Of a stretch of 64,000 bases of DNA, positions 21,109 to 39,596 are shown in pieces (the stretch's first letter is position 1; each line of letters begins with the position of its first letter). Both the position numbers and the translations under genes were made by a program. The stretch is from Haloterrigena alkaliphila. Its GTDB lineage: Archaea > Halobacteriota > Halobacteria > Halobacteriales > Natrialbaceae. Below the pieces are notes generated by a model that saw nothing but the letters and a program-made list of their open reading frames with translations, ran no database searches and was not told where the DNA came from. The stretch covers positions 1,054,001 to 1,118,000 of the forward strand of contig NZ_CP071462.1 in NCBI RefSeq assembly GCF_017352155.2, read 5' to 3'.

Positions 21109-21987
21109 TTACGTGATGTCGAAGAAATCACCGTCGTCGCGGCCCGTCGTGTCCGAATACGACACCGGATACGACTCACCCGGATTGCCGACGACGTCGA
21201 TACCAGAGATTTCGATCGTTATCGTCCCGTCTTCGTTCCCCTGCGGACTGTACGTGAGCCGTGACGTTTCCGAATCGAACGCGACAGTCCCACCGTGACC
21301 CTGGCTCTGAACGGTCAGGTCCCCGTCGGTAACCCCCGAATAGTCGACGCCACCGTTCTGCTGCGGGTTCGAGAAGTCGATCGTCACCTCGTCCTTGTTT
21401 TTCACCGCACCGACGTCGAACGAGACGGTCTGGGTCGTGTCGCCGGTCCCAACGTCGCTCACGTTCAGATCGGCCGAACCGCTGAACTTGCCCTTGCCAC
21501 ACTGAATGTCGACCGTCGCAGTGAACGTCGGCTCTGCGATACTGATGCCGGTCCCGGTCACGCGAGCGACGCGAACGACGATTTCCTGTTCGCCAACGGT
21601 CGTATCGTCGTTACATTCGATCGTAACGGCCGTCGAATCGTTTCGTTCGATAGTCCTGCCCGGATTCGGTGCGGCGATGGTCACGATATCGTCGTTAACA
21701 GTGTCGTCACCGATCGAGTCGACGACGACGCTTCGAACCTCGAGGTCCGCTCCGGCGTTATTATGAAGCGTACCGACCCGCAACGGGTCGCTGTCGCCCC
21801 GAAGCTGGGTCCCGCTGACGTCCCCTTCGCTCTCGATCCCGAGATACGCCTCCGCATCGTCGGCGGTCGTCATATCCACCCCCCTGTCGGCAGCGAACGA
21901 GCTGAATCCGAACGACGGTCCAGCCAGTAGTAGCGACCCCGCGAGCAACGCTACGACCCCGACTTTCGTAATCGCGTTCAGATGCAT
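21109..21987 (-). CDS. Secreted beta-rich protein with ADR...AYLG signature
   Basis: The 292-residue protein has a hydrophobic N-terminal signal (ITKVGVVALLAGSLLLAGPSFG), then FSSFAADRGVDMTTADDAEAYLGI. The same signature occurs in the proteins at 22.3 and 24.2 kb. The rest is Asp/Thr/Val-rich and looks all-beta, with a Cys pair (IECNDD and IQCGKGKF) in the middle. No C-terminal anchor is seen. It reads like an exported envelope or fibre subunit of the DUF1102-like type. Function is inferred only from the neighbourhood, which includes a dedicated signal peptidase at 26 kb. Confidence 0.72.
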   Translation of the reverse strand: MHLNAITKVGVVALLAGSLLLAGPSFGFSSFAADRGVDMTTADDAEAYLGIESEGDVSGTQLRGDSDPLRVGTLHNNAGADLEVRSVVVDSIGDDTVNDDIVTIAAPNPGRTIERNDSTAVTIECNDDTTVGEQEIVVRVARVTGTGISIAEPTFTATVDIQCGKGKFSGSADLNVSDVGTGDTTQTVSFDVGAVKNKDEVTIDFSNPQQNGGVDYSGVTDGDLTVQSQGHGGTVAFDSETSRLTYSPQGNEDGTITIEISGIDVVGNPGESYPVSYSDTTGRDDGDFFDIT

Positions 21988-22268
21988 CGTATTCCCCCAC
22001 CGCGTGCGTCCAATCCGTATCTCGGATTCGGTCTCCGATACCCCTCGTTACGGGTTCAATCGAATTGTTCTGGTAAAAACACAGTCTATCTTCCAAACCG
22101 TTCACTGCGTTTATTACTGTTCAGCGAGCGGAGAAGATGTGGGTATCGAGTCGATCGGTAGGTCAATGGCCACATTCGGGGTGACGTCGGCTGCGAAGAG
22201 GGAAGCGACGATCGTCGTACTGTCACCCGGTGACAGGGGTGGCGGTTTCGTGCACCGTCGGACGGTCG
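21988..22268. other. Intergenic region between two secreted-protein genes
   Basis: About 280 nt, markedly more AT-rich than flanking genes, with tggtaaaaacacag near 22071-22085 and gtttattactg near 22109-22119. It should hold the promoter of the minus-strand gene ending at 21109. I see no convincing coding frame. Confidence 0.4.
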
Positions 22269-23333
22269 TTACAGATCGAGGGGAATTTCGACCGGAATCT
22301 CCTCGGTCGGATGGTTCGGGTCTGCCCCCTCCACGTACAGAACGACAGTTACGGACTCGCCGCTCATATCCACCTGATTGCGAGTGCCTCCGTTCTCTCC
22401 ATCGCGGAACTGCTCGAGACCGAGCAGCAGTCGCTCTCCGCTGCCGGCCGTCGCGGAACTCGATAAATCGTACCGATCGGTGCTGACCGAGAGACTCCCC
22501 TCAAGATTGATTGTCGCGGTCTCGCCGGTCGCATCGTTCGTAATCGTCACTTCGTCGCCGTCAGAGGGCCATATGAATCCATCAATCATATTGACATGGG
22601 TCGCATCGGTGGCATCAGTTACGGTGATCCCGGTTACGGTCATCTCCCCGCTCCCAGCGTTTTCAAGTTCGAACGCGACCCTGCTGTCCCCCTGACTCGA
22701 GTCCAATCCGGTCGGCGCTTCGGCTTCGGGCGTCCCCTCAACCAACTGGAGCGCGATCCGGTCGCTATCGATCGGAACCGGATCATCGGTGAGTTTCCCA
22801 TCACCGGCGCTGTCGTCTTCGTCACAGTCGTACGAGATCCCGTCCACGGTGTGCGTGGCTTCGGCCACGGAAACCTCGGGTCCGGCCGCATTGAGAAGCA
22901 GCGTCACCTCAGTGTCGGTAGCCGTTCCACCCCCCTTCCCGCACTCCAGTTTCACCGACTGTGGTGGATCCTCCGGATCGAGTTCGGTGAGTTCGGCATC
23001 ATTAGCAACTCGTAGAATCGAGTCGTCCGCTCCGGTTACTGAGGCCACTTCGACCGTTACGGTATTGAACGAGACGTCGACGTTGTTCTCGAGGTCGATG
23101 GTTTCGACCTCGTTACTGTCACAGGAGTTCGTGATGAAGTACGTACAGGAACGATTGATTTCGCTCGGATTCCGGTCGCTGATCCCGAGATACGCGGTCG
23201 CCGGAGTGTCGGCTGCACTCACCTGCATGGATCTGTCGGCAGTCAACGACGTGATTCCGAATGCTGGCCCGACCATCGCCACGACGCCGAGCAGTACAAA
23301 CGCGACCCCGAGCTTCGTCAACGTATTCGTCAT
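22269..23333 (-). CDS. Secreted beta-rich protein, paralogue with ADR...AYLG signature
   Basis: The 354-residue protein has an N-terminal signal (LTKLGVAFVLLGVVAMVGPAFG), then ITSLTADRSMQVSAADTPATAYLGI, matching the neighbour at 21.1 kb. Four cysteines (SCTYF, SCDSN, LECGKG, DCDED) suggest disulfides outside the cell. Two segments resemble strands of an Ig-like fold: VAFELENAGSGEMTVTGITV and VTVVLYVEGADP. It has no C-terminal membrane anchor. Its start overlaps the stop of the DUF7344-type regulator gene (ATGA), so the two are translationally coupled. Confidence 0.72.
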   Translation of the reverse strand: MTNTLTKLGVAFVLLGVVAMVGPAFGITSLTADRSMQVSAADTPATAYLGISDRNPSEINRSCTYFITNSCDSNEVETIDLENNVDVSFNTVTVEVASVTGADDSILRVANDAELTELDPEDPPQSVKLECGKGGGTATDTEVTLLLNAAGPEVSVAEATHTVDGISYDCDEDDSAGDGKLTDDPVPIDSDRIALQLVEGTPEAEAPTGLDSSQGDSRVAFELENAGSGEMTVTGITVTDATDATHVNMIDGFIWPSDGDEVTITNDATGETATINLEGSLSVSTDRYDLSSSATAGSGERLLLGLEQFRDGENGGTRNQVDMSGESVTVVLYVEGADPNHPTEEIPVEIPLDL

Positions 23334-23902
23334 GGTGGCCGTTCCATCTCACCAAGTCGCATCCGCCGGCTCTGGACCACGTGCACGACCGCCGATATCG
23401 CAAACAGCGCGAACACCAGCGTTGCCCAGCCCAGTTCCGGAACCGTCTCCGTCGGGACGACCTCGAGCCACAATCCCCCCATTACGACTGCACCGACGAC
23501 GGTCAGCCCGAGATAGTACAACGCCCACGGAATCGAGTCCGACGGGACGACATCGAGATAGACGTCCAGTTCCGCCGCCTCGTCGGTGAGTTCGATCGTT
23601 CGGTCGTCGAACTCGATTATGTCGGCGCGCTCGAGCGTGGGCAGATGCGTCTGCTGAAGCGACGTATAGACGCGCTTGCGCTCGGCGGAAGTGATCTCCT
23701 CGACTTCCTTCTCGAGTTCCCAAGCGGCGACGTGTTCGGCGAGGTCGCCGAGGGTAACGGGTTCGCCCTCGCGCTTGCAGTAGTGGACGGCGTACCGTCG
23801 ACGATGGTTACTCAGCAGATCGAAAATTTCGCCCTGCTTCGATCGGCTGTCCGGATCCGCGTTCCCACCTTGCGTGAGTTGGCTCTCACTAGTTGTCGCC
23901 AT
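23330..23902 (-). CDS. DUF7344-type winged-helix protein with two membrane segments
   Basis: The 190-residue protein starts with a disordered tail. A winged-helix domain follows, with IFDLLSNHRRRYAVHYCKREGEPVTLGDLAEHVA (residues about 25-60) and RKRVYTSLQQTHLPTLERADIIEFD. These are features of haloarchaeal DUF7344 regulators. The C-terminus has two hydrophobic helices (WALYYLGLTVVGAVVMGGLW, WATLVFALFAISAVVHVV). It may be a membrane-tethered regulator of the secreted-protein gene with which it overlaps by 4 nt. The divergent fibre-type gene at 24.2 kb shares its upstream region. Confidence 0.8.
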   Translation of the reverse strand: MATTSESQLTQGGNADPDSRSKQGEIFDLLSNHRRRYAVHYCKREGEPVTLGDLAEHVAAWELEKEVEEITSAERKRVYTSLQQTHLPTLERADIIEFDDRTIELTDEAAELDVYLDVVPSDSIPWALYYLGLTVVGAVVMGGLWLEVVPTETVPELGWATLVFALFAISAVVHVVQSRRMRLGEMERPP

Positions 23903-24192
23903 CCCCGTGTTCAGTAGGAGTAATTTGTCTATTGATACATAACACTTCTTGCCGAGTTGTGATATGCTAGCAAGTAGTTGATCGTCTGGACAGCTAATAG
24001 GGTCATCTCAAGCGTATTTCCAACCATTGATCCCCGTTCAAGATAGTCTTGAATAGATGTATTATCGTGCCTTCAGTCCTTCTGGTTACCTAATACAAAG
24101 TGGGTGGGGTCTCTGGGAGTGAGTAAGGACCGCGTTCAGAATCCGTCGGTGTTGCCGACGGAGATCAGCGCGGTTGTATGGAGATAGTAAAC
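23903..24192. other. AT-rich divergent promoter region
   Basis: About 290 nt separate the DUF7344-type regulator (minus) from the TasA-like gene (plus). It is the most AT-rich stretch of the window, with gtaatttgtctattgatac (23920-23938) and cttgaatagatgtattatc (24049-24067). The plus-strand gene has a good Shine-Dalgarno-like GGAGAT (24180-24185) before ATG 24193, unusual for haloarchaea and consistent with a leadered, regulated transcript. Confidence 0.55.
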
Positions 24193-24726
24193 ATGAGAAT
24201 GAATCGACGCAACGTGTTAGTGGGACTGGGAACAATCGTCGCGGGCGGAGGAGCCGCACTTGGTACGGGTGCATTTAGTAGCGTGCAAGCGGATCGAGAT
24301 ATCACCGTCTCGACGACCAACGACGCGAATGCATATCTCGGTCTCAGCGTGGATAACGACAATATCGCGAGCGGTGCCGGCTCGGGCCAACTCACCCTCA
24401 CTATCGACGCACTCAACGAGAACGCACTGACGAGGTTCGACGGCGTGTTCACCGTCACGAACAACGGAAATGACGGGGTCGGAATCAAAATCGAGGAACT
24501 CGATACGAACGGAAATGTGATCTCCAATAGCGGGATCACCTGGGAAACGAACGCGAACACCCAAGATCTGGAGAGCTATCCGACCGCGAACGGTGACGAT
24601 CACAATCTGGCCATCGACGGAACTTGTCAGGTCGACATCGAAATTGACGGACGGAGCGGCGACGATCCGACCGCCGTCGACTCGATCCGAATCTCGGCAT
24701 CCGCCGATCAGTACAACAACGCCTAA
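24193..24726 (+). CDS. Exported DUF1102-type protein, TasA/AbpA-like fibre subunit candidate
   Basis: The 177-residue protein begins MRMNRRNVLVGLGTIVAGGG, a twin-arginine-like signal. GAFSSVQADRDITVSTTNDANAYLGL follows. The core is a beta-sandwich with LTLTIDALNENALTRFDGVFTVTNNG, the pattern found in TasA/camelysin and SipW-dependent proteins, then GTCQVDIEIDGR. A GGAGAT ribosome-binding site supports the start at 24193. It heads a co-directional set with an anchored paralogue, a signal peptidase I and a DUF5305 protein. Fibre formation is inference from this context, not demonstrated by sequence. Confidence 0.75.
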   Translation: MRMNRRNVLVGLGTIVAGGGAALGTGAFSSVQADRDITVSTTNDANAYLGLSVDNDNIASGAGSGQLTLTIDALNENALTRFDGVFTVTNNGNDGVGIKIEELDTNGNVISNSGITWETNANTQDLESYPTANGDDHNLAIDGTCQVDIEIDGRSGDDPTAVDSIRISASADQYNNA

Positions 24727-24767
24727 TAAACCGGAGACGTCAGGTATACAGCAGCGTTGACTCAGCA

Positions 24768-25931
24768 ATGTCATCTCTCTCGTGGCCGCTAATCGTCGGT
24801 CTCGTCGTTCTCTCGATCGGGCTCGCGATTCCGACCGGCGCAGTGGTGCTCAGCGCGAGTGACCCCGTCGAAGCGGATACTCATGTCGAACTCGCTTCTT
24901 CTACGAGTGCTAATGGCCAGTACGCCTCGATCAAAGGCGACCAACTTCAACTCGACCTTAAAGCACTCAACGATCGCGCGGTCACCACCGCCGATGACGT
25001 TTTCACGATCACAGTTACCGACGATGCAGTCCAACGGGTCTGGATCGAAAACGATGTCACGGGCCTCGAGTTCTACGAATCCGACGACCCATCGGCCCGA
25101 ATAACTGAATCCAACCCCCTCGAATCAAGCGCCGGCGAAACAATCGACATCGGCGTCGTCGTCGATACTCACGTCGACCACGCGGACACGGAGACGTTCA
25201 CGATCCACGTTGCCTACGAGGACGGCAATGACTTCGAGCCGCCAACCCCGAAGGGCGTCTCCCTCGAGTCCCTCTCAGTCACCCCGACCACAGTCGAAAC
25301 GGGCGGCTCCGTAACGGTGAACGCGACCTATCGGAACGACGGCCCAGAGACGAAAGAGCTGACTTCCGATCTGACCATCGACGGCACCGTCGTCGACACC
25401 GAACCGATCGAACTCGAGCCCGGCGAGACGAAATCGGTCGTCTTCGGCCGCGAGATGCAGTGGCCCGGCCGGTACGACGTCAGCGTCGACGGGACAGCGA
25501 GCGAACGGGTGACCGTCACGGGGCCGCCGATCGACGTCCTCGAGGCCTCGGTCACTGACACGGCGCTCACGGCCGGCGAGACGGGAACGATCGAGGCGAC
25601 CGTCAGCAATCCCACGGGGACGGCCGTCACCCGAACTCTCGAGCTGGCCGTCGACGGGGTCGTCGTCGACACCCGAACGGTTCGGCTCGAGCCCAACGGA
25701 ACGACGACGGTGGCGTTCGAGCACACCTTTGGTGAGGCGGGGACGTACGAGGTCTCGGTCAGCGGCGTCGAGGCGGGCACGGTCACTGTCTCCGAACCAG
25801 GTCCGTACCTGCTCCAAGACCGCGAGCTCTCGGCGGCGACGACGGCCGCGCTCGCGCCGCCGCTGGCGACGGGACTGCTGTTCCTGGGCGCCGCGGCGAA
25901 CCGCCGCTGGTCGTTCCTCCCGAGCCGATGA
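24768..25931 (+). CDS. Membrane-anchored surface protein: TasA-like domain plus CARDB-like repeats
   Basis: The 387-residue protein has a signal segment (LIVGLVVLSIGLAIPTGAVVL). A domain similar to the preceding protein follows (DQLQLDLKALNDRAVTTADDVFTITV, residues about 55-150). Two CARDB/Ig-like modules follow, containing VNATYRNDGPETKEL...ELEPGETKSVVF and ATVSNPTGTAVTR...RLEPNGTTTVAFE (about 165-335). A C-terminal membrane helix with a basic tail (AATTAALAPPLATGLLFLGAAANRRW) ends the protein. The gap to the upstream gene is only 41 nt. The layout suggests a cell-bound base or adaptor for the smaller exported paralogue. Confidence 0.75.
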   Translation: MSSLSWPLIVGLVVLSIGLAIPTGAVVLSASDPVEADTHVELASSTSANGQYASIKGDQLQLDLKALNDRAVTTADDVFTITVTDDAVQRVWIENDVTGLEFYESDDPSARITESNPLESSAGETIDIGVVVDTHVDHADTETFTIHVAYEDGNDFEPPTPKGVSLESLSVTPTTVETGGSVTVNATYRNDGPETKELTSDLTIDGTVVDTEPIELEPGETKSVVFGREMQWPGRYDVSVDGTASERVTVTGPPIDVLEASVTDTALTAGETGTIEATVSNPTGTAVTRTLELAVDGVVVDTRTVRLEPNGTTTVAFEHTFGEAGTYEVSVSGVEAGTVTVSEPGPYLLQDRELSAATTAALAPPLATGLLFLGAAANRRWSFLPSR

Positions 25932-26007
25932 CAGGCTCGAAGCGTCGTTCCCGGCTCGCGGGGCCTTTATGGTGATCGAATCCAAACAGGTGTCCGAACC
26001 AATCAGT

Positions 26008-26014
26008 AAATAAA
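26008..26014 (+). promoter_or_regulatory. TATA-like box of the signal peptidase gene
   Basis: AAATAAA is centred about 29 nt before ATG 26040, fitting a leaderless transcript. This suggests the peptidase can be expressed separately from the upstream surface-protein genes. Confidence 0.5.
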
Positions 26015-26039
26015 CCATGAAATTCCTCGAGGCGCAACG

Positions 26040-27209
26040 ATGACGGAGGCGACGCTTCTCAAGCGAGCCCTGGGACTGGGCGTCGCCCTCGTCGTCGTCC
26101 TGTTGCTGGTCGGCCAACTCCTCGGACAGCCGATCCTGCTGGGCTACGTCGCGACCGGGAGCATGGAACCCGCCCTCGAGGCCGGCGACGGCTTCGTCGC
26201 GATTCCGAGCGTCGCGGCCGGGGAGGTCGAGGAGGGTGACGTCGTCGTCTTCGAGGCTCGAGAACTCCACGGCGGCGGGCTGACGACCCACCGCGTGGTC
26301 GGGGAGACCGACGAGGGGTACGTCACCAAGGGCGACGCGAACCCGTTCACGGACCAGGACGGCGGCGAGCCACACGTCACGAAGGGCCAGATCGTCGCGA
26401 CGGCCCTACAGGTGAACGGCGACGTGGTGACGATCCCCGGCCTCGGAACGGCCGTTATGGGAATTCAGAGCGTCGCGAAGTCGGCCTACGGGACGATTGC
26501 GCCGGTCTTCGGCCTCACGACCACCGCGGGTTCGGAGGGGATCGGTGCGTTGCTGGTCGCCCTCGGCGTCGCGCTGCTCGGATTCGGCGCACTGCTCGAG
26601 CGGGTCGGACCTGGGCGACGCGAGACGCATCGCTCGCGCTCCCGCGAAAACGTGATCGCGTTCTGGACCGCGCTGGGGTTGGTCCTGCTCGTGTTCGTGA
26701 CGTTCGCGACTGCAGCGATGGTGATCCCGTCCGGGACGACCGAGTACGGACTCGTGAGTACGAACTCGCCGACCGACGATCCGCAGGTACTCGCGCCCGG
26801 CGAGACGGGCGAACTCGAGCGAACCGTCGACAACACGGGCTATCTCCCGATCGTGACCGTCCACGAGGTCAGGAGCAACAACGTCGCGGTCGAACCCGGG
26901 TCCCAGACCGTCGGCATCCGCTCGAGCGGAACCGCGACGGTCTCGCTCACGGCCCCCGAAGCGACCGGCGAGTACACGCGACACGTCGGCGAGTATCGGT
27001 ATCTCACCGTGCTCCCGCCGTCGGTACTCGTCTCGCTCCACGGGCTCCACCCGCTCGCCGCGATTGCCGCCGTAAACGGTGTCATCGTCGGTCTCGCCGT
27101 CGCGATCGTGCTGCTCGTCTTCGGTCACACCGATCTCCGATTTCGCTCCGCGGGCGATCACGTCCCGCTGTCGACGCGTCTCGAGCGAAAGCTCCGAAAG
27201 TGGCGGTAG
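26040..27209 (+). CDS. Signal peptidase I with an added C-terminal ectodomain
   Basis: The 389-residue protein starts with a membrane helix (LGLGVALVVVLLLVGQLLG). The archaeal/ER-type catalytic core follows: Ser41 in GYVATGSMEPAL, His84 in LTTHRVVG, and Asp99/Asp105 in TKGDANPFTDQD (Ser-His type, no Lys). After about residue 155 it continues with two membrane segments, an Ig-like ectodomain (LAPGETGELERTVDNTGYLPIVTVHEV...GIRSSGTATVSL) and a last membrane helix. Ordinary archaeal signal peptidases stop near residue 200. Position next to the TasA-like genes suggests a dedicated SipW-like processing enzyme. Confidence 0.88.
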   Translation: MTEATLLKRALGLGVALVVVLLLVGQLLGQPILLGYVATGSMEPALEAGDGFVAIPSVAAGEVEEGDVVVFEARELHGGGLTTHRVVGETDEGYVTKGDANPFTDQDGGEPHVTKGQIVATALQVNGDVVTIPGLGTAVMGIQSVAKSAYGTIAPVFGLTTTAGSEGIGALLVALGVALLGFGALLERVGPGRRETHRSRSRENVIAFWTALGLVLLVFVTFATAAMVIPSGTTEYGLVSTNSPTDDPQVLAPGETGELERTVDNTGYLPIVTVHEVRSNNVAVEPGSQTVGIRSSGTATVSLTAPEATGEYTRHVGEYRYLTVLPPSVLVSLHGLHPLAAIAAVNGVIVGLAVAIVLLVFGHTDLRFRSAGDHVPLSTRLERKLRKWR

Positions 27210-27236
27210 TCAAGGAGTCGCAGACGGCCGGTATCG

Positions 27237-27242
27237 TTATAA
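27237..27242 (+). promoter_or_regulatory. TATA-like box before a short leader frame
   Basis: TTATAA is centred 27-28 nt upstream of the ATG at 27267. The transcript would then begin at or next to that ATG, upstream of the DUF5305 gene. Confidence 0.55.
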
Positions 27243-27266
27243 TGGTCGAAAACCCTGAACGTAGAT

Positions 27267-27371
27267 ATGCGTCTCCTGCGACCGATCCGCGGTCCCGGAT
27301 CGGTTCGGGACCACTGGGGGTTCGTGGCCGCGTTGAGTGGCCAGTCGGGGTGTCCTGATCGTGATCGATAA
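27267..27371 (+). CDS. Possible 34-residue leader peptide overlapping the DUF5305 start
   Basis: ATG at 27267 opens a 34-codon frame (MRLLRPIRGPGSVRDHWGF...) ending TAA at 27369-27371. It is basic and Arg-rich, unlike normal haloarchaeal proteins, which weakens the case for a stable product. Two facts support translation. A TATA box lies at leaderless distance from this ATG. Its stop overlaps GTG 27361, the preferred start of the DUF5305 gene. It may only couple or tune translation. Confidence 0.35.
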   Translation: MRLLRPIRGPGSVRDHWGFVAALSGQSGCPDRDR

Positions 27372-28533
27372 TCCGCGTCTCGAGTTGATACTCGCCGAAT
27401 ACGGCCGCCCGGTCGTGATCGCGCTGATCGCGATCGGCGCCGTCGCGTTCCTCGCGTCGGGGTGGGCGGTCGCCAACCCGACGACGTCGACGACGCCACA
27501 GTACGCCGACGAACGCGTCGCCAGCGACGTCGACACGAGCGCGGTCGTCGTGAATAACGGAACGCTGTGGAACGAGGGCGACCGACTCGAGAACAGCGGG
27601 GTCTACATGCTCAACGCCTCGCCGGAACTGACCCTCGAACCGACGACCCGGCTGGTCAACGGGACCGGCGGGACGCCGATCGACGGAACGGTCACCCACG
27701 AGATCGTGCTTCGGTTCGAGGCGACGCGAGACGGCGAGGTGTTCTGGAACGAGACGCACTCCGAAGGCGTCATCTCGCCGACCGTCCGCGACGGCGTCGC
27801 GACGTCGGAAGCGACCATCGACGTCGAATCCTACCGCGAGCGCCAGACGGAACTCGAGAGCGCTATCTCCGGCGTCGGTTCGGTCGACCTCCGAGTCACG
27901 CTTCACGTCGAGTACGAGACGGGGGCGAGTCAGGGGACACAGCAGGCGTCGACGACGCTTCACGTGACCGACGACGCGTACTGGCTGGAGGGGCCGCTGT
28001 CGGCGACGGACGAGAACACCTATCAGACGGGGACGGACCGAACGACCGAATCGCGGAACCTCACGGCTATCGGCGGCCTCTCCCTGCTCGGGACGCTCTC
28101 GCTCGCGGGCGCCGTCGTCGCCCGTCGATCCTCCATCGACGAGGAGGCCGCCAGAAGAGCGGTCCACGAACGGCGGTACGCAGAGTGGATCTCGCGCGGG
28201 TCGATCCCGATGTGGATCGGCGACTACCACGTCTCGCTGGACACCCTCGAGGACGTCGTCGACGTCGCGATCGACACGAACGAGCGCGTCGTCCACGACA
28301 CGCAACGTGGCCTGTTCGCGGTCGTCAACGACGGCGTCGTCTACTACTACAGCGACCGCGGACTCTGGGAGGAGACCGCCTGGCCGGAGATGGATCTGGA
28401 GGGCCAGCCCGCGGCCGTCGACGCCGACCAGCCGCTGTCGACGGACGACCTCGAGCTCGAGGGCAGCGACGAGTTCGCCGACCCCGACGACGAGGGGTTC
28501 GACGACGACGAGGACGTCTGGCAGAAACTGTAG
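27361..28533 (+). CDS. DUF5305 membrane protein
   Basis: From GTG 27361 the 390-residue protein begins MIDNPRLELILAEYGRP, then a membrane helix (VIALIAIGAVAFLASGWAVA). An extracellular beta-rich domain follows (DTSAVVVNNGTLWNEGDRLE...LHVEYET, to about residue 215), then a second helix (GGLSLLGTLSLAGAVVA) and a cytoplasmic domain with EWISRGSIP and an acidic tail (FADPDDEGFDDDEDVW). This is the DUF5305 layout. The family often travels with SipW-like signal peptidases in archaea, matching the neighbour here. A GTG at 27337 is an alternative start. Confidence 0.85.
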   Translation: MIDNPRLELILAEYGRPVVIALIAIGAVAFLASGWAVANPTTSTTPQYADERVASDVDTSAVVVNNGTLWNEGDRLENSGVYMLNASPELTLEPTTRLVNGTGGTPIDGTVTHEIVLRFEATRDGEVFWNETHSEGVISPTVRDGVATSEATIDVESYRERQTELESAISGVGSVDLRVTLHVEYETGASQGTQQASTTLHVTDDAYWLEGPLSATDENTYQTGTDRTTESRNLTAIGGLSLLGTLSLAGAVVARRSSIDEEAARRAVHERRYAEWISRGSIPMWIGDYHVSLDTLEDVVDVAIDTNERVVHDTQRGLFAVVNDGVVYYYSDRGLWEETAWPEMDLEGQPAAVDADQPLSTDDLELEGSDEFADPDDEGFDDDEDVWQKL

Positions 28534-28745
28534 CGTGGGTCGCGAGTGAGTTGCGAGTGCGTCGCGGTCGATCGGGGCCTCGCCGCGGTGAATGCGGTCG
28601 CGTTCGACTCGGTTCCCGCGGATTTCGCGGAAAGCTGACTCTCGAGTCAGATATCGATATCGGAGAGTACGAGCCGTATCACCCCACTTTACTACCGCGA
28701 GTCTATCGTAATATTTGATGACGCGGATCCCTCGTAAGGCTCAAC

Positions 28746-28752
28746 TTTTATA
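28746..28752 (+). promoter_or_regulatory. TATA-like box of the HTH regulator
   Basis: TTTTATA is centred about 29 nt before ATG 28778, fitting a leaderless transcript. It supports that start codon over an in-frame ATG at 28715, which lies upstream of the box. Confidence 0.6.
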
Positions 28753-28777
28753 CTCCTGGGGGTTTTCGATTCGTAGT

Positions 28778-29071
28778 ATGGCAGAGACTGACGGGGAGGA
28801 CATCGAAGATTTGCCACCGAGCGCCAAACTGGTTTTCAAGGTTCTCGAGTACGACGGGCCGCTGACGCAGAAACAGATCGTCGAGGAATCGATGCTGTCT
28901 GCCCGGACCGTCCGCTACGCGCTCGAGCGACTCGAGGAGATCGGCATCGTCGACGAGGACATCTACTTTGCGGACGCTCGCCAGAGCCTCTATCGGCTCG
29001 AGGAGCCGATGGCGGCCGACGGGAACGGCGTCGAGGAGTCGCCGAAAAAGGACGCCTGCTGCGCGGAGTAG
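28778..29071 (+). CDS. Winged-helix transcriptional regulator (MarR/TrmB-like)
   Basis: The 97-residue protein is essentially one winged-helix DNA-binding domain: LPPSAKLVFKVLEYDGPLTQKQIVEESMLSARTVRYALERLEEIGIVDE, then a wing (YFADARQSLYRLEE). The C-terminus ends with a vicinal cysteine pair (DACCAE), which could respond to metal or redox state. ATG at 28778 sits at leaderless distance from a TATA box. Its targets are unknown. It borders the surface-protein island but points away from it. Confidence 0.87.
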   Translation: MAETDGEDIEDLPPSAKLVFKVLEYDGPLTQKQIVEESMLSARTVRYALERLEEIGIVDEDIYFADARQSLYRLEEPMAADGNGVEESPKKDACCAE

Positions 29072-32990: not shown

Positions 32991-34094
32991 TCACTTCGGC
33001 GAGCGGTGGGATTCGTCGGAGAACCAGTCGTCGGTAACCTCCGTCGGGGTGCCGGTCGCCGAGGACCGCACGCTCCGGTAAATGTGCTCGAGGTTGTCCA
33101 TCGTGCGTCGAACGTCGTAGCGCTCGACGGCCGCTCTGGTGTCGCGGTCCGTTCGGAGACAGGTCTCGACCGCCGCGACCATCGCCTCGAGGTCGCCGTA
33201 CGCGAACCGCTCGCCGTTGTCGGGGCCGATGGTCTTGTCGAACGGCGCCGCGTCCGTCGCGACGACCGGCGTCCCGCAGGCGTTGGCCTCGAGCGTCGAG
33301 AGACCGAGGGTGTCGGCGGTCGAGGCGGTGACGAAGACGTCGATCGAGGAGTAGAAGATCGGGAGCTCCTCGCGGGGGAGAAAGCCGCGGATCTCGACGT
33401 TGTCCGGCGCGTTTCGCTCGAGGGAGTCGCGATAGGGGCCGTCGCCGACGACGACGAAGTCGTACTCCGGGAGGTCCTCGGCGAGGCGGAGGATCTCGTG
33501 GACGTTCTTCTCCATGCTGAGTCGACCGCTGTAGCCGATCACCGTCCGGTCGGGGTACCAGTCCTCGGCGGCCGGCTGGAAGAAGTCCATGTCGATGCCG
33601 ACCGGGAGCTGGACGTGTTCCACGTCGCGCTCGATTCGGCTCGTGGAGGCGGTCACGACGTCGAAACTCCGGAGGAACGCGTTCTCCATCGGCACGTACA
33701 GTTTCGAGAGCGCGGCGGCGACCGACTCGAACTTGACGTTCTGGTGGAAGTACTCCTCGAGGGGCGTGTGGTGGGTGTAGACCGCGGGCAGGTCGTGTTT
33801 GCGGGCGTAGTAGCGGCCGAGAATGCCGACCGGCGCCGGCCCGTGGCAGTGGACGACGTCCAGGTCGGGGAGCGTCGACGGCCGCCTGAGGAGGGGGATC
33901 CGATACCCCGGGTAGAACGGGTTCGACACCGATTTGACCGGGAGCTCGCGCTCGCCGGGTTCGTAGTCGCCGTCCGGGTAGACGACGTACACCTCGTGGC
34001 CGTCGCGTTCCAACTCCTCGCGCCAGAGCTTGATCGTATACGTCACGCCGTCGATCTCGGGGAAGTAACTGTCCGTAAAGAAGCCGATTTTCAT
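32991..34094 (-). CDS. GT4 glycosyltransferase (glycolipid-synthase-like)
   Basis: The 367-residue GT-B enzyme starts MKIGFFTDSYFPEIDGVTY. It has HCHGPAPVGILGRYYA and VYTHHTPLEEYFHQ in the acceptor-side domain. The nucleotide-sugar domain contains IGYSGRLSMEKNV and STLEANACGTPVVATD, the E-x7-E motif. The N-terminal pattern resembles diacylglycerol glucosyltransferases and SQD2-like enzymes, so a lipid acceptor is plausible. Its ATG directly follows the TGA of a second GT4 gene, forming an operon with it. Confidence 0.9.
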   Translation of the reverse strand: MKIGFFTDSYFPEIDGVTYTIKLWREELERDGHEVYVVYPDGDYEPGERELPVKSVSNPFYPGYRIPLLRRPSTLPDLDVVHCHGPAPVGILGRYYARKHDLPAVYTHHTPLEEYFHQNVKFESVAAALSKLYVPMENAFLRSFDVVTASTSRIERDVEHVQLPVGIDMDFFQPAAEDWYPDRTVIGYSGRLSMEKNVHEILRLAEDLPEYDFVVVGDGPYRDSLERNAPDNVEIRGFLPREELPIFYSSIDVFVTASTADTLGLSTLEANACGTPVVATDAAPFDKTIGPDNGERFAYGDLEAMVAAVETCLRTDRDTRAAVERYDVRRTMDNLEHIYRSVRSSATGTPTEVTDDWFSDESHRSPK

Positions 34095-35075
34095 TCAGGC
34101 CACCTCGCTGTAGAGCGTCCGGTACTGGTTCGCGACCGAATCGAGCGAGAACGCCTCGCTCCGCTCGGCCGCGTTCGATCCGAGGCGACGGCGTCGCTCG
34201 GGGTCCTCGAGTCGGTCGAGCGCGTCGACGAACGCGTCGACGCCGCCCGCGACCTTCAGGCAGTCCTCGCCGTCCTCGAGCCACGAGAACGTCTCGATGT
34301 CGCGGACGAGGACCGGCTTGCCGGCGGTCATCGCCTCGAGCAGCGCGATCCCCTCGTTCTCCTCGTGGGTGGGGAAACAGAAGATATCGCCCGCCGCGTA
34401 CGCGCCGCGGATGTCGTCGACGTACCCGGTGAACGTGCAGTTGTCGGGCGAGTCGTCGATCAGCCGGGTCGTCTCCCGGCCCTTCAGCCGGCGGTCGATC
34501 GGCCCGAACCACGCGAAGTCCAGATCGGGGAGCCGTCGAGCCAGTTCGACGAACGTCTCGAGTCCCTTGCGCTTGATGACGTGCCCGACGAGGAAGACGG
34601 TCGGCGCCTCGAGGTCGTAGCGCTCGCGGTACTCGGCCTCGAGGGACTCGAACCCCTCGAGTTTCTCGCGGTCGACGCCGTTCGAGACGACGGTCGTCGG
34701 CGCGTCGGCGTACGTCTCGATCAGTTTGCGATTGTACTCCGACGGACAGATCAGCGCGTCGGCCAGCCCGTAGGCCCACTCGAGGTACGGTTTCAGGGGT
34801 TTCGCGAGGGTATTTGTGAAGCGAAAGCTGTCCCCGAAGTCCTCGGCGGTGACGTGCGTGTGGGCGACGACGGGGACGCCCCGCGAGCGCGCCCGCCTCG
34901 CGTACCAGACCGAGCGCGGGCCCATGAGGTTACAGTGGAGGACGTCGGCCGACAGCGTCGGCTTAGTCGTGTACCGCAGATCCAGCCGGTCCAGCATCTT
35001 TCGCTGGTGGGCGACGGATTCGCGGATGCCGCCGGTGACGTGGTCCTCGAGCTCGAAGTAGTGGCTGATCTTCAT
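34095..35075 (-). CDS. GT4 glycosyltransferase
   Basis: The 326-residue GT-B enzyme begins MKISHYFELEDHVTGGIRES. It has ADVLHCNLMGPRSVWYARRA, AHTHVTAEDFGD and SEYNRKLIETYA in the N-terminal half. VFLVGHVIKRKGLETFVELA and FPTHEENEGIALLEAMTAGKPVLVRD (E-x7-E) form the donor site. ATG 35075 gives a normal start; the frame upstream is open but belongs to a shadow of the neighbouring gene. The two GT4 enzymes probably add successive sugars to one lipid or glycan. Confidence 0.9.
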   Translation of the reverse strand: MKISHYFELEDHVTGGIRESVAHQRKMLDRLDLRYTTKPTLSADVLHCNLMGPRSVWYARRARSRGVPVVAHTHVTAEDFGDSFRFTNTLAKPLKPYLEWAYGLADALICPSEYNRKLIETYADAPTTVVSNGVDREKLEGFESLEAEYRERYDLEAPTVFLVGHVIKRKGLETFVELARRLPDLDFAWFGPIDRRLKGRETTRLIDDSPDNCTFTGYVDDIRGAYAAGDIFCFPTHEENEGIALLEAMTAGKPVLVRDIETFSWLEDGEDCLKVAGGVDAFVDALDRLEDPERRRRLGSNAAERSEAFSLDSVANQYRTLYSEVA

Positions 35076-35164
35076 TCCGGACGCCTCGTGGCTGTGGTGG
35101 CGGTGATCGCGGTGGCGGATTCGACGGTCGTGATGACCGTGTGTCGGTGGCTGCTGGCGAGACC

Positions 35165-36025
35165 CTACTCGACCTCGAGCCACGGGACCTCCACGAGCGG
35201 CGGGATGTGCGTCTCGATGTGGTGTTCCCAGACGCCCTCCTCGCCGAAGGCTTCGCCGTGGTCGGCGGTCACGACGACCTTCCCGTCCAGTTCCGGAATC
35301 AGGTCCGCGACGGCTTCGAGCGCGATCCGCAGGTTCTCCTCGTACAACTCCAGCGCGGCCTCCCGGGTCCCGTTTCTGACGAGGTCCGCGGGGTCGAGTT
35401 CGAGCCACAGCCCCGCCTTCTGGGCGAGTTCGCTGCCCTCGAGTCGTTGCTCGACTTTCGGCCGGATCGTATCGCCAAGCGACGAGAGCGCGCCGCCCCC
35501 GCCGTCGGCCGCCTTCTCCGATTCCTCCTGTCGCCGGATCCCCTTCTGGATCTGCTTGAGCTTCTGCCCCTTCCCGCGGGAGAGGTAGGGGGCGTGTGGC
35601 TGCATGTAGTGGAGCACCGTCCGGTCGGCCCGCTCGACGGTCGCCGACTGCTCGCGGAACGCCTCGGCCAGGCTCTCCGGCGGGACCGTTCCGAGGTCGT
35701 CGTCCCAGCCGGTCTTCCAGACGTCGAAGACGTCGCTGATGTGGTCCGACGCCGTCCACTCGTAGTCGCAACTGGCGCCCCACTTGAGTTCGTTCAACGG
35801 GATCCCGAGGTCGTTGATGAAGGGGTTCCCGGAGAAGTACGCGATGTCGTGGTCGCCGGTGAACGTTCGGTAGGCCCACTCCGGCGTAGACGAACCGATA
35901 CTCCGCCGTTTCTCCAGAGAGCCGTCGAGGTACTCGTCGTAGACGTCGCGAAAGACGTCGTACCGGCACGCGTCCAGCACCAGACAGTAGTCCCACTCTG
36001 ACTCCAGGAACTGTTGGTCCTCCAT
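35165..36025 (-). CDS. Small alkaline-phosphatase-fold (sulfatase-like) hydrolase
   Basis: The 286-residue protein starts WDYCLVLDACRYDVF, where Asp18 fits the first metal ligand. GSSTPEWAYRTFTG places Thr47 where the nucleophile of this superfamily lies. TVLHYMQPHAPYL and VVVTADHGEAFGE (second metal site) follow. There is no C/S-x-P-x-R formylglycine motif, so sulfatase activity is doubtful. The family is common in haloarchaeal glycan clusters. A basic, Gly-rich insertion lies near residues 165-185. It lies 90 nt upstream of the GT4 pair. Confidence 0.8.
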   Translation of the reverse strand: MEDQQFLESEWDYCLVLDACRYDVFRDVYDEYLDGSLEKRRSIGSSTPEWAYRTFTGDHDIAYFSGNPFINDLGIPLNELKWGASCDYEWTASDHISDVFDVWKTGWDDDLGTVPPESLAEAFREQSATVERADRTVLHYMQPHAPYLSRGKGQKLKQIQKGIRRQEESEKAADGGGGALSSLGDTIRPKVEQRLEGSELAQKAGLWLELDPADLVRNGTREAALELYEENLRIALEAVADLIPELDGKVVVTADHGEAFGEEGVWEHHIETHIPPLVEVPWLEVE

Positions 36026-36152
36026 CGGTTACCTCCGACTTTCGAGTCTACCCACCTATGCTTACTGGTGTGCAGACAGTCACTGTCGATTCGCTATCGT
36101 TTCTTCCCGTGAGAGACGTTGGCTACTCGGGTTCAGCGGTCGGCCCACCGCG

Positions 36153-37793
36153 TCACTCGAGGTAGCCGAGTTCGCGCAGTCGGTCGCGGGTCTCCTCGTC
36201 GGCCTCGGCCAGCGCGTCAGCCTGGTCGGCGTCCGTCTCGGTCGGATCGTCCCACGCGCCGCCAGCGGCCGCCTCGAAGCGAGCGAGCGCGCGTTCGGCC
36301 GCGGCGACGACGTCGTCGTCCGCCGGATCGAGCGCCGTCGACTCCGCGGGATCCTCGTCGAGCCGGTACCCCTCGTCTGGGATGCGATCCGCGCGGACGT
36401 ACTTCGCGTCGGTGCTGCGGGCCGCGCGCAGCCGCGAGTAGGCCCGGTGGTCGTCGGGCAGGTCGATTCCGGCCTCGCTTGCCTTCTCCTCCAAGTGATG
36501 GAGTTCGATCACCGGCTGGGCGTACTCGACGAACGCGTAGTCGCCTTCGCCGTCGTCATCGGATTGCGTCCGATCGCTCGAGGGACTACGTTCCTCGCCG
36601 TCGTCCGACACCTCGCTACTCCCGAGCACCGCTCGCTGGCCGAGATCCGGCGTTTCGGCGCCCTCGAAGTCGCGGTACTCGCTCGAGAGCAGCGAGCGCG
36701 TCGGGTCGAGCGCGACCGCGTCGCCGTCCCCCGGCGTCTCGACTGCGGTCGCCGGGTCTGTCTCGAGCGCGTCCAGCACGGTGTGATAGCAGTCGAGCAA
36801 CTCGACGAGGTCCTCGCGCCGATCGGCCTCGAGCGCGGGGTGTTTGACCAGCAGCGGGACGTTGATCAGCTGGTCGTAGAGGGCGAACTCGTGGCCGTAG
36901 AGGTCGTGTTCGCCGTGGAGTTCGCCGTGGTCGGCACAGACCACGACGGTCGTCTCCTCCCACTGGCCGGTCTCGCGCAGCCAGTCGAACAGGCGGCCGA
37001 GTTCGGCGTCCATGTGGGCGATCTCGGCGTCGTAGAGGCCGCGGATGGCCTCCCACTCCTCGTCGTCGATGTCGCGCGCGCCGGAGTTGTACTCCTTGGA
37101 GTTCTGGCAGACGTCGTCGGGGTTCACGCCGGGCGCGAACTCCTCGCGGTACGCCTCGGGCGGATAGTAGGGCAGGTGAGCGTCCATCAGGTTAATGAAG
37201 GCGAACCAGCCCTCGTCGCTGTCGCTGTCGTCGATGAACGACTTCGTCCGGTCGATCACCGAGGGCGTCTTCGAGTCCGCTCCCTCGCCGCTGGCGAGCT
37301 TGGAGTGGGCCATCGCGCCGAGGTGGACCAGCTTCGACGCCAGCTCGCGGAGGTAGTCGTTGTCGTTGACGGCCTGCCACGCGCTGGCCAGCGGCCCCGA
37401 GAGGACGTCGCCGGGGAGCACCTCGAAGAACGAGTCCTGCTCCTCGAAGCCGTCGGTGAGGCCGGTGTAGGGGGTGATCCAGGCGTTCGAGGAGTAACAC
37501 GCCGTGTCGTAGCCGGCCGCCGAGAGGACCGACGCGAGGGTCGTCTCGTCGTCGAGGTACGGACTCCCCTGATCGGCCCCGTGCTGACTCGGATACCGGC
37601 CGGTGAACAGCGAGGCGTGAACCGGGAGCGTCCACGGCGCGGGCGCGACCGCCGACTCGAAGACGGTCGCCTCCTCGGCGAACCGGGAGAGTTCGGGCGT
37701 CGTCCCCCGATCGTAGCCGTACGGCTCGAGGCGGTCCTTTCGGACCGTATCCAGCACGACGAAGAGCACGTTCGACTGCTGCGTCTCGTCCAT
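36153..37793 (-). CDS. Sulfatase-like alkaline-phosphatase-superfamily enzyme
   Basis: The 546-residue protein starts NVLFVVLDTVRKDRLEPYGY, with Asp15 as metal ligand. APAPWTLPVHASLFTGRYPSQHG puts Thr55 at the nucleophile position. FAFINLMDAHLPYYPP, VVVCADHGELHGEHDLYGH and LLVKHP are later superfamily motifs. It lacks the Cys/Ser of true formylglycine sulfatases, so phosphotransfer or phosphodiester cleavage on glycans is as likely as sulfate removal. An acidic linker is near residue 410. There is no signal peptide. ATG 37793 is the start. Confidence 0.85.
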   Translation of the reverse strand: MDETQQSNVLFVVLDTVRKDRLEPYGYDRGTTPELSRFAEEATVFESAVAPAPWTLPVHASLFTGRYPSQHGADQGSPYLDDETTLASVLSAAGYDTACYSSNAWITPYTGLTDGFEEQDSFFEVLPGDVLSGPLASAWQAVNDNDYLRELASKLVHLGAMAHSKLASGEGADSKTPSVIDRTKSFIDDSDSDEGWFAFINLMDAHLPYYPPEAYREEFAPGVNPDDVCQNSKEYNSGARDIDDEEWEAIRGLYDAEIAHMDAELGRLFDWLRETGQWEETTVVVCADHGELHGEHDLYGHEFALYDQLINVPLLVKHPALEADRREDLVELLDCYHTVLDALETDPATAVETPGDGDAVALDPTRSLLSSEYRDFEGAETPDLGQRAVLGSSEVSDDGEERSPSSDRTQSDDDGEGDYAFVEYAQPVIELHHLEEKASEAGIDLPDDHRAYSRLRAARSTDAKYVRADRIPDEGYRLDEDPAESTALDPADDDVVAAAERALARFEAAAGGAWDDPTETDADQADALAEADEETRDRLRELGYLE

Positions 37794-37830
37794 TAGGTGG
37801 AACAACTGAGTCCATCCCAATAAAACGAAT

Positions 37831-37874
37831 CAACTGTCTCGCGCTATCAGACCAACTGTCTCGCACTATCGAAC
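37831..37874. repeat. Two 22-nt tandem units upstream of the sulfatase-like gene
   Basis: Units 37831-37852 and 37853-37874 share caactgtctcgc(g/a)ctatc. They lie about 40-80 nt upstream of the minus-strand start at 37793, within the likely promoter region. Confidence 0.7.
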
Positions 37875-38008
37875 GGTCGGTCGATTGCCCGTGCGCCGTC
37901 GGGCGGGCGATCGTTACGCGTTCATCGGCGCCGGCCGCGAACCCGAGGGCTGGCGAGTAGGCCGGACGTAATCAGACGTTTCAAGTTCGCTGATGATCCA
38001 CACCTGCT

Positions 38009-39028
38009 ATGGACGAGCGAAACCGGCGGGCACTCCTCATCGGCGGCTTCGGCACGATCGCCGTCTTCGCCGTGCTGTTTTTCCTCGTCGGCGCGCGCGA
38101 CATCGTCGACTCGCTGCTCTCGGCGACGCCCTCGCTGGTCGTCGCGACCTTCGCTCTCGCGCTGTGCTGGCTGGCCGCGTGGAGTCTCATGCTCCGGACC
38201 GTCCTCGGCTCCCTCGGCGTCCACGTACCGGCCGGAAAGGCGTTCTTCGTCTACGCCGGCGCCGTCTTCGCCAACAACGTCACCCCGTTCGGTCAGGCCG
38301 GCGGGGAACCGGTCGCGGCGCTGCTCATCTCGAAGGTCTCCGACGCGCGCTACGAGACCGGGCTGGCCGGCATCGCGAGCGTCGACGTGCTCAACGTCGT
38401 CCCCTCGATCTCGCTCATTCTCGCCGGGGTCGGCTACTACGCCACCACCGCCGCCGTCGGCGAGCGCCTCGAGACCGCCGTCGGCTCGGCCATCGCGCTG
38501 ATCGCGGCGATCGTCCTCGCGATGGCGTTCGTCTGGCGGCATCGGCACGCGATCGTCGAGCGCCTTCCGGCCGTCATCGCCCCCCGGATCGGGCGGTTCG
38601 GGTTCATCGGATCCGATCCCGAGACGTTCGAGGCAAATCTGGCGGATCGGATGGGGCGGTTCTTCGAGAACATCGAGCGCGTCGCGACGGATCGGGGACG
38701 ACTCTCCGCCGTGGTCGGCCTCTCGCTGGCCGGCTGGCTCCTTCAGGTGGCCGCGCTCACGGCCGCGTTCGCCGCAGTAGGCTACAGCGTTCCGCCGTAC
38801 GTGCTGTTGTTCGTGATCCCGCTGGCGAACCTCGCCGGCGCGGCGCCCCTGCCCGGCGGCCTCGGCGGGATCGAGGCGGCGTTCGTCACGCTGCTCGTGC
38901 CGACGACCGGCATCCCGGCGTCGGCAGTCACGGCGGCCGTCCTCATCTTCCGCGGTGCGATCTACTGGATGCCCGTCCTGATCGGCGGCGTGTCGGTGTC
39001 GGCGTTCGGCGTGCAGACGCTCGAGTGA
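38009..39028 (+). CDS. UPF0104/lysylphosphatidylglycerol-synthase-type membrane protein (flippase-like)
   Basis: The 339-residue protein has about eight membrane segments and the family hallmarks NNVTPFGQAGGEPVAALLIS, SVDVLNVVPS and LANLAGAAPLPGGLGGIEAA. The family includes the membrane half of MprF, which flips lipids, and the Haloferax glycosylation protein AglD region. It may move a glycolipid across the membrane. A TATA-like TTTCAA lies about 28 nt before ATG 38009. A second copy at 47.1 kb bounds the same glycan region. Confidence 0.86.
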   Translation: MDERNRRALLIGGFGTIAVFAVLFFLVGARDIVDSLLSATPSLVVATFALALCWLAAWSLMLRTVLGSLGVHVPAGKAFFVYAGAVFANNVTPFGQAGGEPVAALLISKVSDARYETGLAGIASVDVLNVVPSISLILAGVGYYATTAAVGERLETAVGSAIALIAAIVLAMAFVWRHRHAIVERLPAVIAPRIGRFGFIGSDPETFEANLADRMGRFFENIERVATDRGRLSAVVGLSLAGWLLQVAALTAAFAAVGYSVPPYVLLFVIPLANLAGAAPLPGGLGGIEAAFVTLLVPTTGIPASAVTAAVLIFRGAIYWMPVLIGGVSVSAFGVQTLE

Positions 39029-39095
39029 CCGCGAATCCCGGATCGACCGAGCGATTGATCCCCGTCCGGCGCGGACGGTCGGACGACCACCCGCC

Positions 39096-39596
39096 ATGTA
39101 CCGCGAGGGTCACGTCGGATTCAACGCGCTGCTGTACGCCCCCTTCGTCCCCCTGGTGAGCCGGTACTGGTCGCTCGAGCTGGCGGTCCTTGGAGCGGTG
39201 CTGGCCGTCGGACTGGCCAACCTCCCCGATATCGATCAGCCGCTCCCGCGGATTCGCCACCGCGGCCCGACGCACACGCTCTGGTTCGCCGTCTTCGTCG
39301 GACTCGCGGCCGGCGTCGGGACGACGCTGGTCGTCCCCTCGACGCCCGTCGCCTTCCGGTTCGGATTCGTCGTCGGGACCGCCAGCGTTCTCACCCACCT
39401 CGCGGGCGACGTCGTCACCCCGATGGGGATCAGCCCGCTGGCCCCGCTCTCGCGGACCCACGTGACGCTCGACTGGTTCAAATCCAAGAACGGCCGGATC
39501 AACAAGAGCGTCCTGTTCGTCGGAACGGTCGTGTTACTCGGGTCGTTGCTCCTGACGATCGAGGGGAGAGCGGGGCTCGGCGTGCCGGCCCTCTAA
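39096..39596 (+). CDS. Membrane metal-dependent hydrolase family protein (DUF457/YdjM-like)
   Basis: The 166-residue protein starts MYREGHVGFNALLYAP. It has GLANLPDIDQPLPRIRHRGPTHTLWF and LTHLAGDVVTPMGISPLAP, the clustered His/Asp motifs of the YdjM-like family, across about four membrane segments. It resembles the convergent gene at 39.7 kb in motif layout. Its function is not established. A role on membrane lipids or phosphorylated lipids would suit the surrounding glycan genes but is not shown. Confidence 0.85.
   Translation: MYREGHVGFNALLYAPFVPLVSRYWSLELAVLGAVLAVGLANLPDIDQPLPRIRHRGPTHTLWFAVFVGLAAGVGTTLVVPSTPVAFRFGFVVGTASVLTHLAGDVVTPMGISPLAPLSRTHVTLDWFKSKNGRINKSVLFVGTVVLLGSLLLTIEGRAGLGVPAL

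Follow-up and report, generated by a model that had tools for sequence, protein, structure and literature searches.

What the window analysed here raises as a question is whether an island of seven genes (window positions 21109-28533) encodes a surface fibre, and if so which one; the window is the whole stretch of 64,000 nucleotides, positions 1054001-1118000 of the 4.27-Mb genome of the haloarchaeon Haloterrigena alkaliphila. The original prediction was of an island for a surface fibre, comprising a subunit of the TasA/AbpA type, a signal peptidase devoted to it and paralogues as possible minor subunits, a view that fold matches, co-loss across genomes and the set of Taf genes now support. 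We conclude that the island is very probably a tafi (Tat-fimbriae) cluster in a haloarchaeon of the Natrialbaceae, and thus an already known system. According to a passage in PMC12687288, which cites Galeva et al. 2025 (doi 10.1016/j.isci.2025.111793), tafi are thin filaments exported by the twin-arginine translocation (Tat) pathway, with TafA as their core component. All the predicted genes lie where they had been placed, and the features of the cluster are as follows:

21109..21987, minus strand: P21, TafC-like putative minor subunit, 292 amino acids, with Sec-type signal, ADR donor-strand segment (predicted), conserved Ig-like N-domain and Ig-like C-domain
22269..23333, minus strand: P22, second TafC-like paralogue, 354 amino acids, with 4 Cys; TafC-like by hhalign of its N-domain against that of TafC
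23330..23902, minus strand: DUF7344 winged-helix protein, likely a membrane-tethered regulator (Pfam, two C-terminal hydrophobic segments)
24180..24185, plus strand: GGAGAT ribosome-binding site, 7 nucleotides before ATG 24193 (sequence)
24193..24726, plus strand: P24, probable tafi pilin, 177 amino acids from ATG 24193 (9p0a homology, TafE match, structure match)
24274..24327, plus strand: predicted mature N-terminus and donor strand of P24, FSSVQADRDITVSTTNDA (conservation, position outside the structural alignment)
24768..25931, plus strand: putative TafF-like base, with pilin-type core, two CARDB modules and C-terminal hydrophobic segment (hhalign, Pfam)
26040..27209, plus strand: dedicated signal peptidase I of the Ser/His/Asp type, with CARDB-like ectodomain and four hydrophobic segments (TIGR02228, motifs, co-loss)
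27361..28533, plus strand: DUF5305 membrane protein, reading frame open from 27337 (Pfam, two hydrophobic segments, co-loss)

The evidence that carries this identification is a fibre of solved structure. Entry 9p0a of the PDB is titled 'Structure of Natrinema sp. J7-2 Tafi pilus', and P24 is similar to its chain both as a single sequence (phmmer E 1.1e-19) and as a profile (E 2.3e-44). The 9p0a pilin is in turn identical, at 186/186 positions of the compared stretch, to a gene product of Natrinema gari JCM 14663 (L158:7935-8612). The genes at that locus run ABCE1, EMC6, a gene of the P21/P22 type (here P2x), DUF7344, a large gene, P24, CARDB protein, signal peptidase and DUF5305; the window has the same order, minus the large gene and plus the extra P22 copy.

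The predicted fold of P24 was compared with known structures using a model built from 71 sequences (predicted local distance difference test, pLDDT, 73; predicted template modelling score 0.62). Its top matches are the bundling pilus subunit AbpA (7ueg, Z 8.7), the tafi pilin (9p0a, Z 8.4) and the Sulfolobus thread (7pnb, Z 7.5), followed by FimA (Z 6.3) and then generic Ig-like folds; the predicted likeness to AbpA is thus borne out by the first match, with a root-mean-square deviation of 3.2 over 116 residues in a model of moderate confidence. A Z of 8 is on its own middling; the weight lies in the first three ranks all being taken by donor-strand pili of archaea, one of which also resembles P24 independently in sequence. 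The structural alignments to 9p0a, AbpA and the thread start at model residue 43 or 45, leaving outside them the preceding segment of P24, FSSVQADRDITVSTT, which is expected to be the donor strand; the original prediction had proposed looking for a donor-strand N-terminus, and this segment is conserved (0.71). In 9p0a itself, Foldseek counts 188 residues, ending at 215, for a chain of 215; if only the N-terminus is missing, the mature protein would begin at Phe28, with cleavage between GTGA and FSSVEADR. What did not hold is the TasA/camelysin-like core of P24 as sequence kinship: no match to that family was found for the window proteins at E up to 1 in a Pfam scan. TasA is also absent among the structural neighbours listed for P24, which excludes no relation.

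The reading frame of P24 is open from 24178. The strong GGAGAT that had been noted before it is there, but it sits 7 nucleotides upstream of ATG 24193, and the start is therefore probably 24193 (MRMNRR...) and not 24178. The twin-arginine signal, MNRRNVLVG, suggests that P24 is probably exported folded by Tat, and a dibasic RR, RK or KR motif occurs in 39/42 Natrialbaceae P24-type proteins and in all 32 of 32 others. Mean conservation among the 42 Natrialbaceae sequences is 0.92 for the signal, 0.71 for the donor segment and 0.34 for the body, so that the signal peptide (window 24193-24273) is near-invariant while the mature body drifts, the reverse of the usual pattern. In these alignments the parts of P24 concerned with export, cleavage and joining are fixed, and it is the exposed body that varies.

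Four exported proteins share the pilin-type domain. Among the 317 open reading frames of the window of at least 60 amino acids, the ADR...AYLG segment occurs in exactly the three for which it had been described, those at 21.1, 22.3 and 24.2 kb (P21, P22 and P24), and residue-shuffled frames gave a mean of 0.005 matches per set; this sharing is not expected by chance. In pairwise hhalign comparisons, where the controls weigh more than the E-values since there is no database background, P24 matches the N-domain of the CARDB protein (probability 97.9, E 3.5e-13), as expected of a 24.8-kb protein said to repeat its core, and also the N-domains of P21 and P22 (97.8 and 97.7), as against 0.3-1.5 for the negative controls, the unrelated C-domains of P21 and P22. 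Profile comparison found no hidden pilin domains in the ectodomains of the DUF5305 protein and the signal peptidase. At the level of profile comparison, common descent of P24, the N-domains of P21 and P22 and the N-terminal core of the CARDB protein is confirmed.

The same method links the window to the named Taf families of NCBIfam. P24 matches the TafE profile (99.7, E 2.7e-26) and the TafA profile (97, E 1e-10), the N-domains of P21 and P22 match that of TafC (98.55, E 1.5e-15, and 98.9, E 1.3e-17), and the N-core of the CARDB protein matches that of TafF (95.3, E 2.2e-8). As a sequence, P21 aligns with TafC NF052521 over the N-domain only (E 2e-8, 33.7 bits; the cut-off of 410 is not reached), and no LamG match was found in it in the Pfam scan. 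At another haloarchaeal locus, L218, TafE (225 bits), TafA (251), TafC (568) and TafF (582) all score above the NCBIfam cut-offs, and next to these genes lie orthologues of three from the window, the peptidase, DUF7344 and DUF5305. Loci L218-L222 and the window have the same gene set (TafA/TafE, TafC, TafF, signal peptidase, DUF7344, DUF5305), save that the window has no separate TafA. The links to TafA, TafE-type, TafC and TafF genes identify the window locus as a tafi cluster with one shaft gene. TafA exceeds its cut-off in 24/391 Halobacteria genomes, mostly of two families other than Natrialbaceae, and most Natrialbaceae have either lost the TafA-type gene or never possessed it. In some (G068, G069, G084, G108 and G061) the locus pairs the P24-type gene with one of the TafA type; in G068 TafA, the TafE-type gene, the CARDB protein and DUF5305 all lie inside about 6 kb.

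The remaining genes of the cluster behave as parts of the same system. The gene predicted to encode a specialised signal peptidase I does so: the protein passes the TIGR02228 cut-off of NCBIfam, its GSM, THR and GD/TDQD motifs with the Ser, His and Asp show little or no variation among 41 orthologues, and it is lost together with the pilin. Its ectodomain resembles a CARDB module (hhalign 89.6, E 1.9e-6), and its match to the SipW model, 32 of 190 bits, is far under the cut-off. A DUF5305 gene does follow it (Pfam E 7.4e-47, two hydrophobic segments), with the start corrected, probably to GTG 27361 as in relatives. The divergent winged-helix gene is likewise as described, a DUF7344 member (Pfam E 6.6e-30) with hydrophobic segments at 123-142 and 154-179 that fit a membrane tether.

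In 40 Natrialbaceae loci chosen by their match to the CARDB protein, the block of P24, CARDB protein, signal peptidase and DUF5305 is complete in all 40, with DUF7344 in 37/40 and a P2x gene also in 37/40; identity ranges over 31-72% for P24 and 58-82% for the peptidase. A further 40 loci were found via the peptidase, in Haloferax, Halobellus, Halorussus, Haloarcula, Halomicrobium and others as well as in second clusters of Natrialbaceae, and although several of them end at contig edges, 29 have the P24-type pilin, DUF5305 and DUF7344 together. Ten of the 125 Natrialbaceae genomes, from 7 genera, have no DUF5305, and the same 10 also have neither the TafE-type gene nor this peptidase; the chance probability of the TafE/DUF5305 co-absence is 5.6e-12 if the genomes are independent. 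The spread over 7 genera points to several independent joint losses or absences, and pilin, peptidase and DUF5305, being missing from the same genomes, behave as one module. As genomes without this peptidase live, it is not the housekeeping enzyme.

Putative roles can be given to the larger exported proteins. The 24.8-kb protein has the two CARDB modules expected of it (Pfam E 2.4e-13), and the membrane anchor also ascribed to it is plausible, but its C-terminal hydrophobic segment is only moderately hydrophobic (1.53 over 19 residues). P21 and P22, with 2 and 4 Cys respectively, are related throughout (hhalign 99.9 for the N-domains, 99.8 for the C-domains). The AlphaFold2 model of P21 (pLDDT 86) has two Ig-like domains, and its confidence is low in the donor segment at residues 29-42, where the pLDDT falls below 50. 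Structural matches at Z 8-9.5 liken its N-domain to the Ig domains of pilus chaperones and its C-domain to those of adhesins, but they are too unspecific for a function to be read from them. The P2x N-domain is found in relatives joined to Ig-like, LamG, bactofilin-like or other C-domains. A shared donor segment and connector domain with variable C-domains would be expected if P21 and P22 are minor subunits of the adhesin or capping type. That they instead form separate, alternative fibres is rather unlikely: in its favour, each has its own donor segment and P2x genes can occur in several copies per locus, but the N-domains match TafC, a fimbrial component with a lectin-like domain, the swapping of C-domains between relatives is typical of adhesins, and in the genome of the window this type of signal peptidase I, DUF5305 and the TafE-type gene are each present once. 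The original suggestion that the larger paralogues could be minor subunits is the one we retain.

Two observations bear on the variety of large genes at this locus. A TafC-like protein of 1458 amino acids (L229:12543-16916), with LamG and carboxypeptidase-regulatory-like domains, is an extreme form of a modular adhesin. In many Natrialbaceae a large DUF7289-type gene of about 800-1250 amino acids (for example L079:5738-8389, L080:12691-15786 and L158:4818-7523, in one case with a VWA domain) lies between DUF7344 and the pilin gene, and the window is without it. Large genes at this site (800-1100 amino acids) were considered as long forms of TafC and rejected, as those tested begin with DUF7289 and have a different N-terminus.

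Several points weigh against the cluster being tafi with P24 as its shaft pilin. The match of P24 to TafE NF052522, though full-length (E 1e-24), scores 87 bits and does not reach the curated cut-off of 155, which all 125 Natrialbaceae genomes also miss; its match to TafA NF052520 covers the N-terminal 43 positions only and, at 51 bits, does not reach 190. NCBIfam names TafE an adapter and not the shaft, and the role of P24 therefore rests on 9p0a. The P24 model is, as said, of moderate confidence, the co-loss probability ignores shared ancestry, and in this organism the fibre is a prediction from genes. A twin-arginine motif is lacking in P21, P22 and the CARDB protein, so that Tat would not be the fibre's sole export route: P21 and P22 carry Sec-type signals, as do most Natrialbaceae P2x proteins (a dibasic motif is present in 6/40), whereas the Haloarcula-type TafC starts KKWTRR. 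Going by these signals, the name Tat-fimbriae would fit the shaft pilin and not every subunit.

The second of these points, together with the closer match of P24 to TafE than to TafA, would suit P24 being an adapter only, with the shaft made by another gene such as P21, P22 or one elsewhere. We consider this very unlikely, as 9p0a is built from the P24 orthologue, the sole gene of that type in its locus, and no separate TafA was found in the window genome. Hardly any credence is due to the idea that the products are monomers at the cell surface, secreted or bound to the membrane, which the peptidase just processes. In its favour, the Ig-type fold is common, a Z of 8-9 is middling and the fibre is in this organism a prediction from genes. 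Against it, the 9p0a pilus is formed by the orthologue at the same place in a sister genus, and the donor segment, at 0.71, is under much stronger conservation than the body, at 0.34, which fits a surface where subunits meet.

With P24 as the shaft pilin of a tafi cluster, assembly might proceed as follows. P24 would be exported folded through Tat, and the neighbouring signal peptidase I would cut before its FSSV..ADR segment, freeing an N-terminal donor strand that would insert into the next subunit, so that polymerisation would be by donor-strand exchange. The CARDB protein, as the TafF counterpart with its C-terminus in the membrane, would likely be the base receiving the first donor strand, and P21 and P22, as TafC counterparts, would serve as minor subunits, either adhesins or caps. 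DUF7344 is probably a regulator of these genes seated in the membrane, and DUF5305 may be an accessory that the system cannot do without, perhaps belonging to its assembly platform. More tentatively, we speculate that export is mixed: the shaft pilin might travel folded via Tat, and the base and the adhesins via Sec, the two meeting only on being cut by a dedicated peptidase with a CARDB-like ectodomain, and the adhesins might be a modular set, with a conserved donor-strand connector and interchangeable C-domains, diversified between species.

Known fibre systems place the cluster more closely. The Natrinema sp. J7-2 tafi pilus is alike in its orthologous pilin in the same gene order, signal, donor segment and fold; it is from another species, and the mature body has strongly diverged (21% identity over the structural alignment). 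The Haloarcula-type tafi cluster also has a twin-arginine pilin, TafC, TafF, signal peptidase, DUF7344 and DUF5305, whereas the window has one TafE/TafA-type gene, no TafA and a different gene order; its TafF has a Gly-rich linker where the window's counterpart has CARDB modules, and its TafC has a twin-arginine signal and a LamG domain, both lacking in the window's counterparts. AbpA of Pyrobaculum calidifontis, with its N-terminal donor strand expected here too, has the closest fold to P24 but does not resemble it significantly in sequence, with 10% identity across the structurally aligned part. The Sulfolobus thread Saci_0406 is similar in fold, in being a donor-strand fibre and in processing by signal peptidase I (PMC9715654), and differs in its Sec signal and isopeptide bonds and in having no significant sequence similarity to P24. 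The tapA-sipW-tasA operon of Bacillus subtilis makes a donor-strand fibre (PMC9674648) and likewise has a pilin-like subunit, a dedicated signal peptidase I and accessory subunits, but the window's accessory subunits are not TapA and its peptidase falls far short of the SipW model. Of the two parallels drawn originally, that to AbpA therefore stands for the fold and that to the Bacillus operon is an analogy, the closest system being the haloarchaeal tafi.

Just downstream of DUF5305, at window 28715-29071, lies a gene for a 118-residue winged-helix protein that is 78-97% identical across Natrialbaceae, a conservation far above that of the fimbrial genes. No counterpart was found in the 40 other loci examined, and it is therefore treated as a neighbour and not as a member of the cassette. 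Further on, at window 32991-39596, a glycosyltransferase, a sulfatase-family protein and LPG-synthase-type and YdjM-type membrane proteins are clustered; not far from the fimbrial genes, they may form a locus for a polysaccharide or glycan of the cell surface.

The assignment brings seven genes, including members of the uncharacterised families DUF5305 and DUF7344, into a fimbrial system that is present in most Natrialbaceae and also in Haloferax, Halobellus, Haloarcula and relatives. It is also a caution that in Natrialbaceae the protein labelled 'TafE adapter' by NCBIfam may really be the shaft pilin. Given the pattern of co-loss, gene deletion offers a direct test of what DUF5305 and the dedicated peptidase do.

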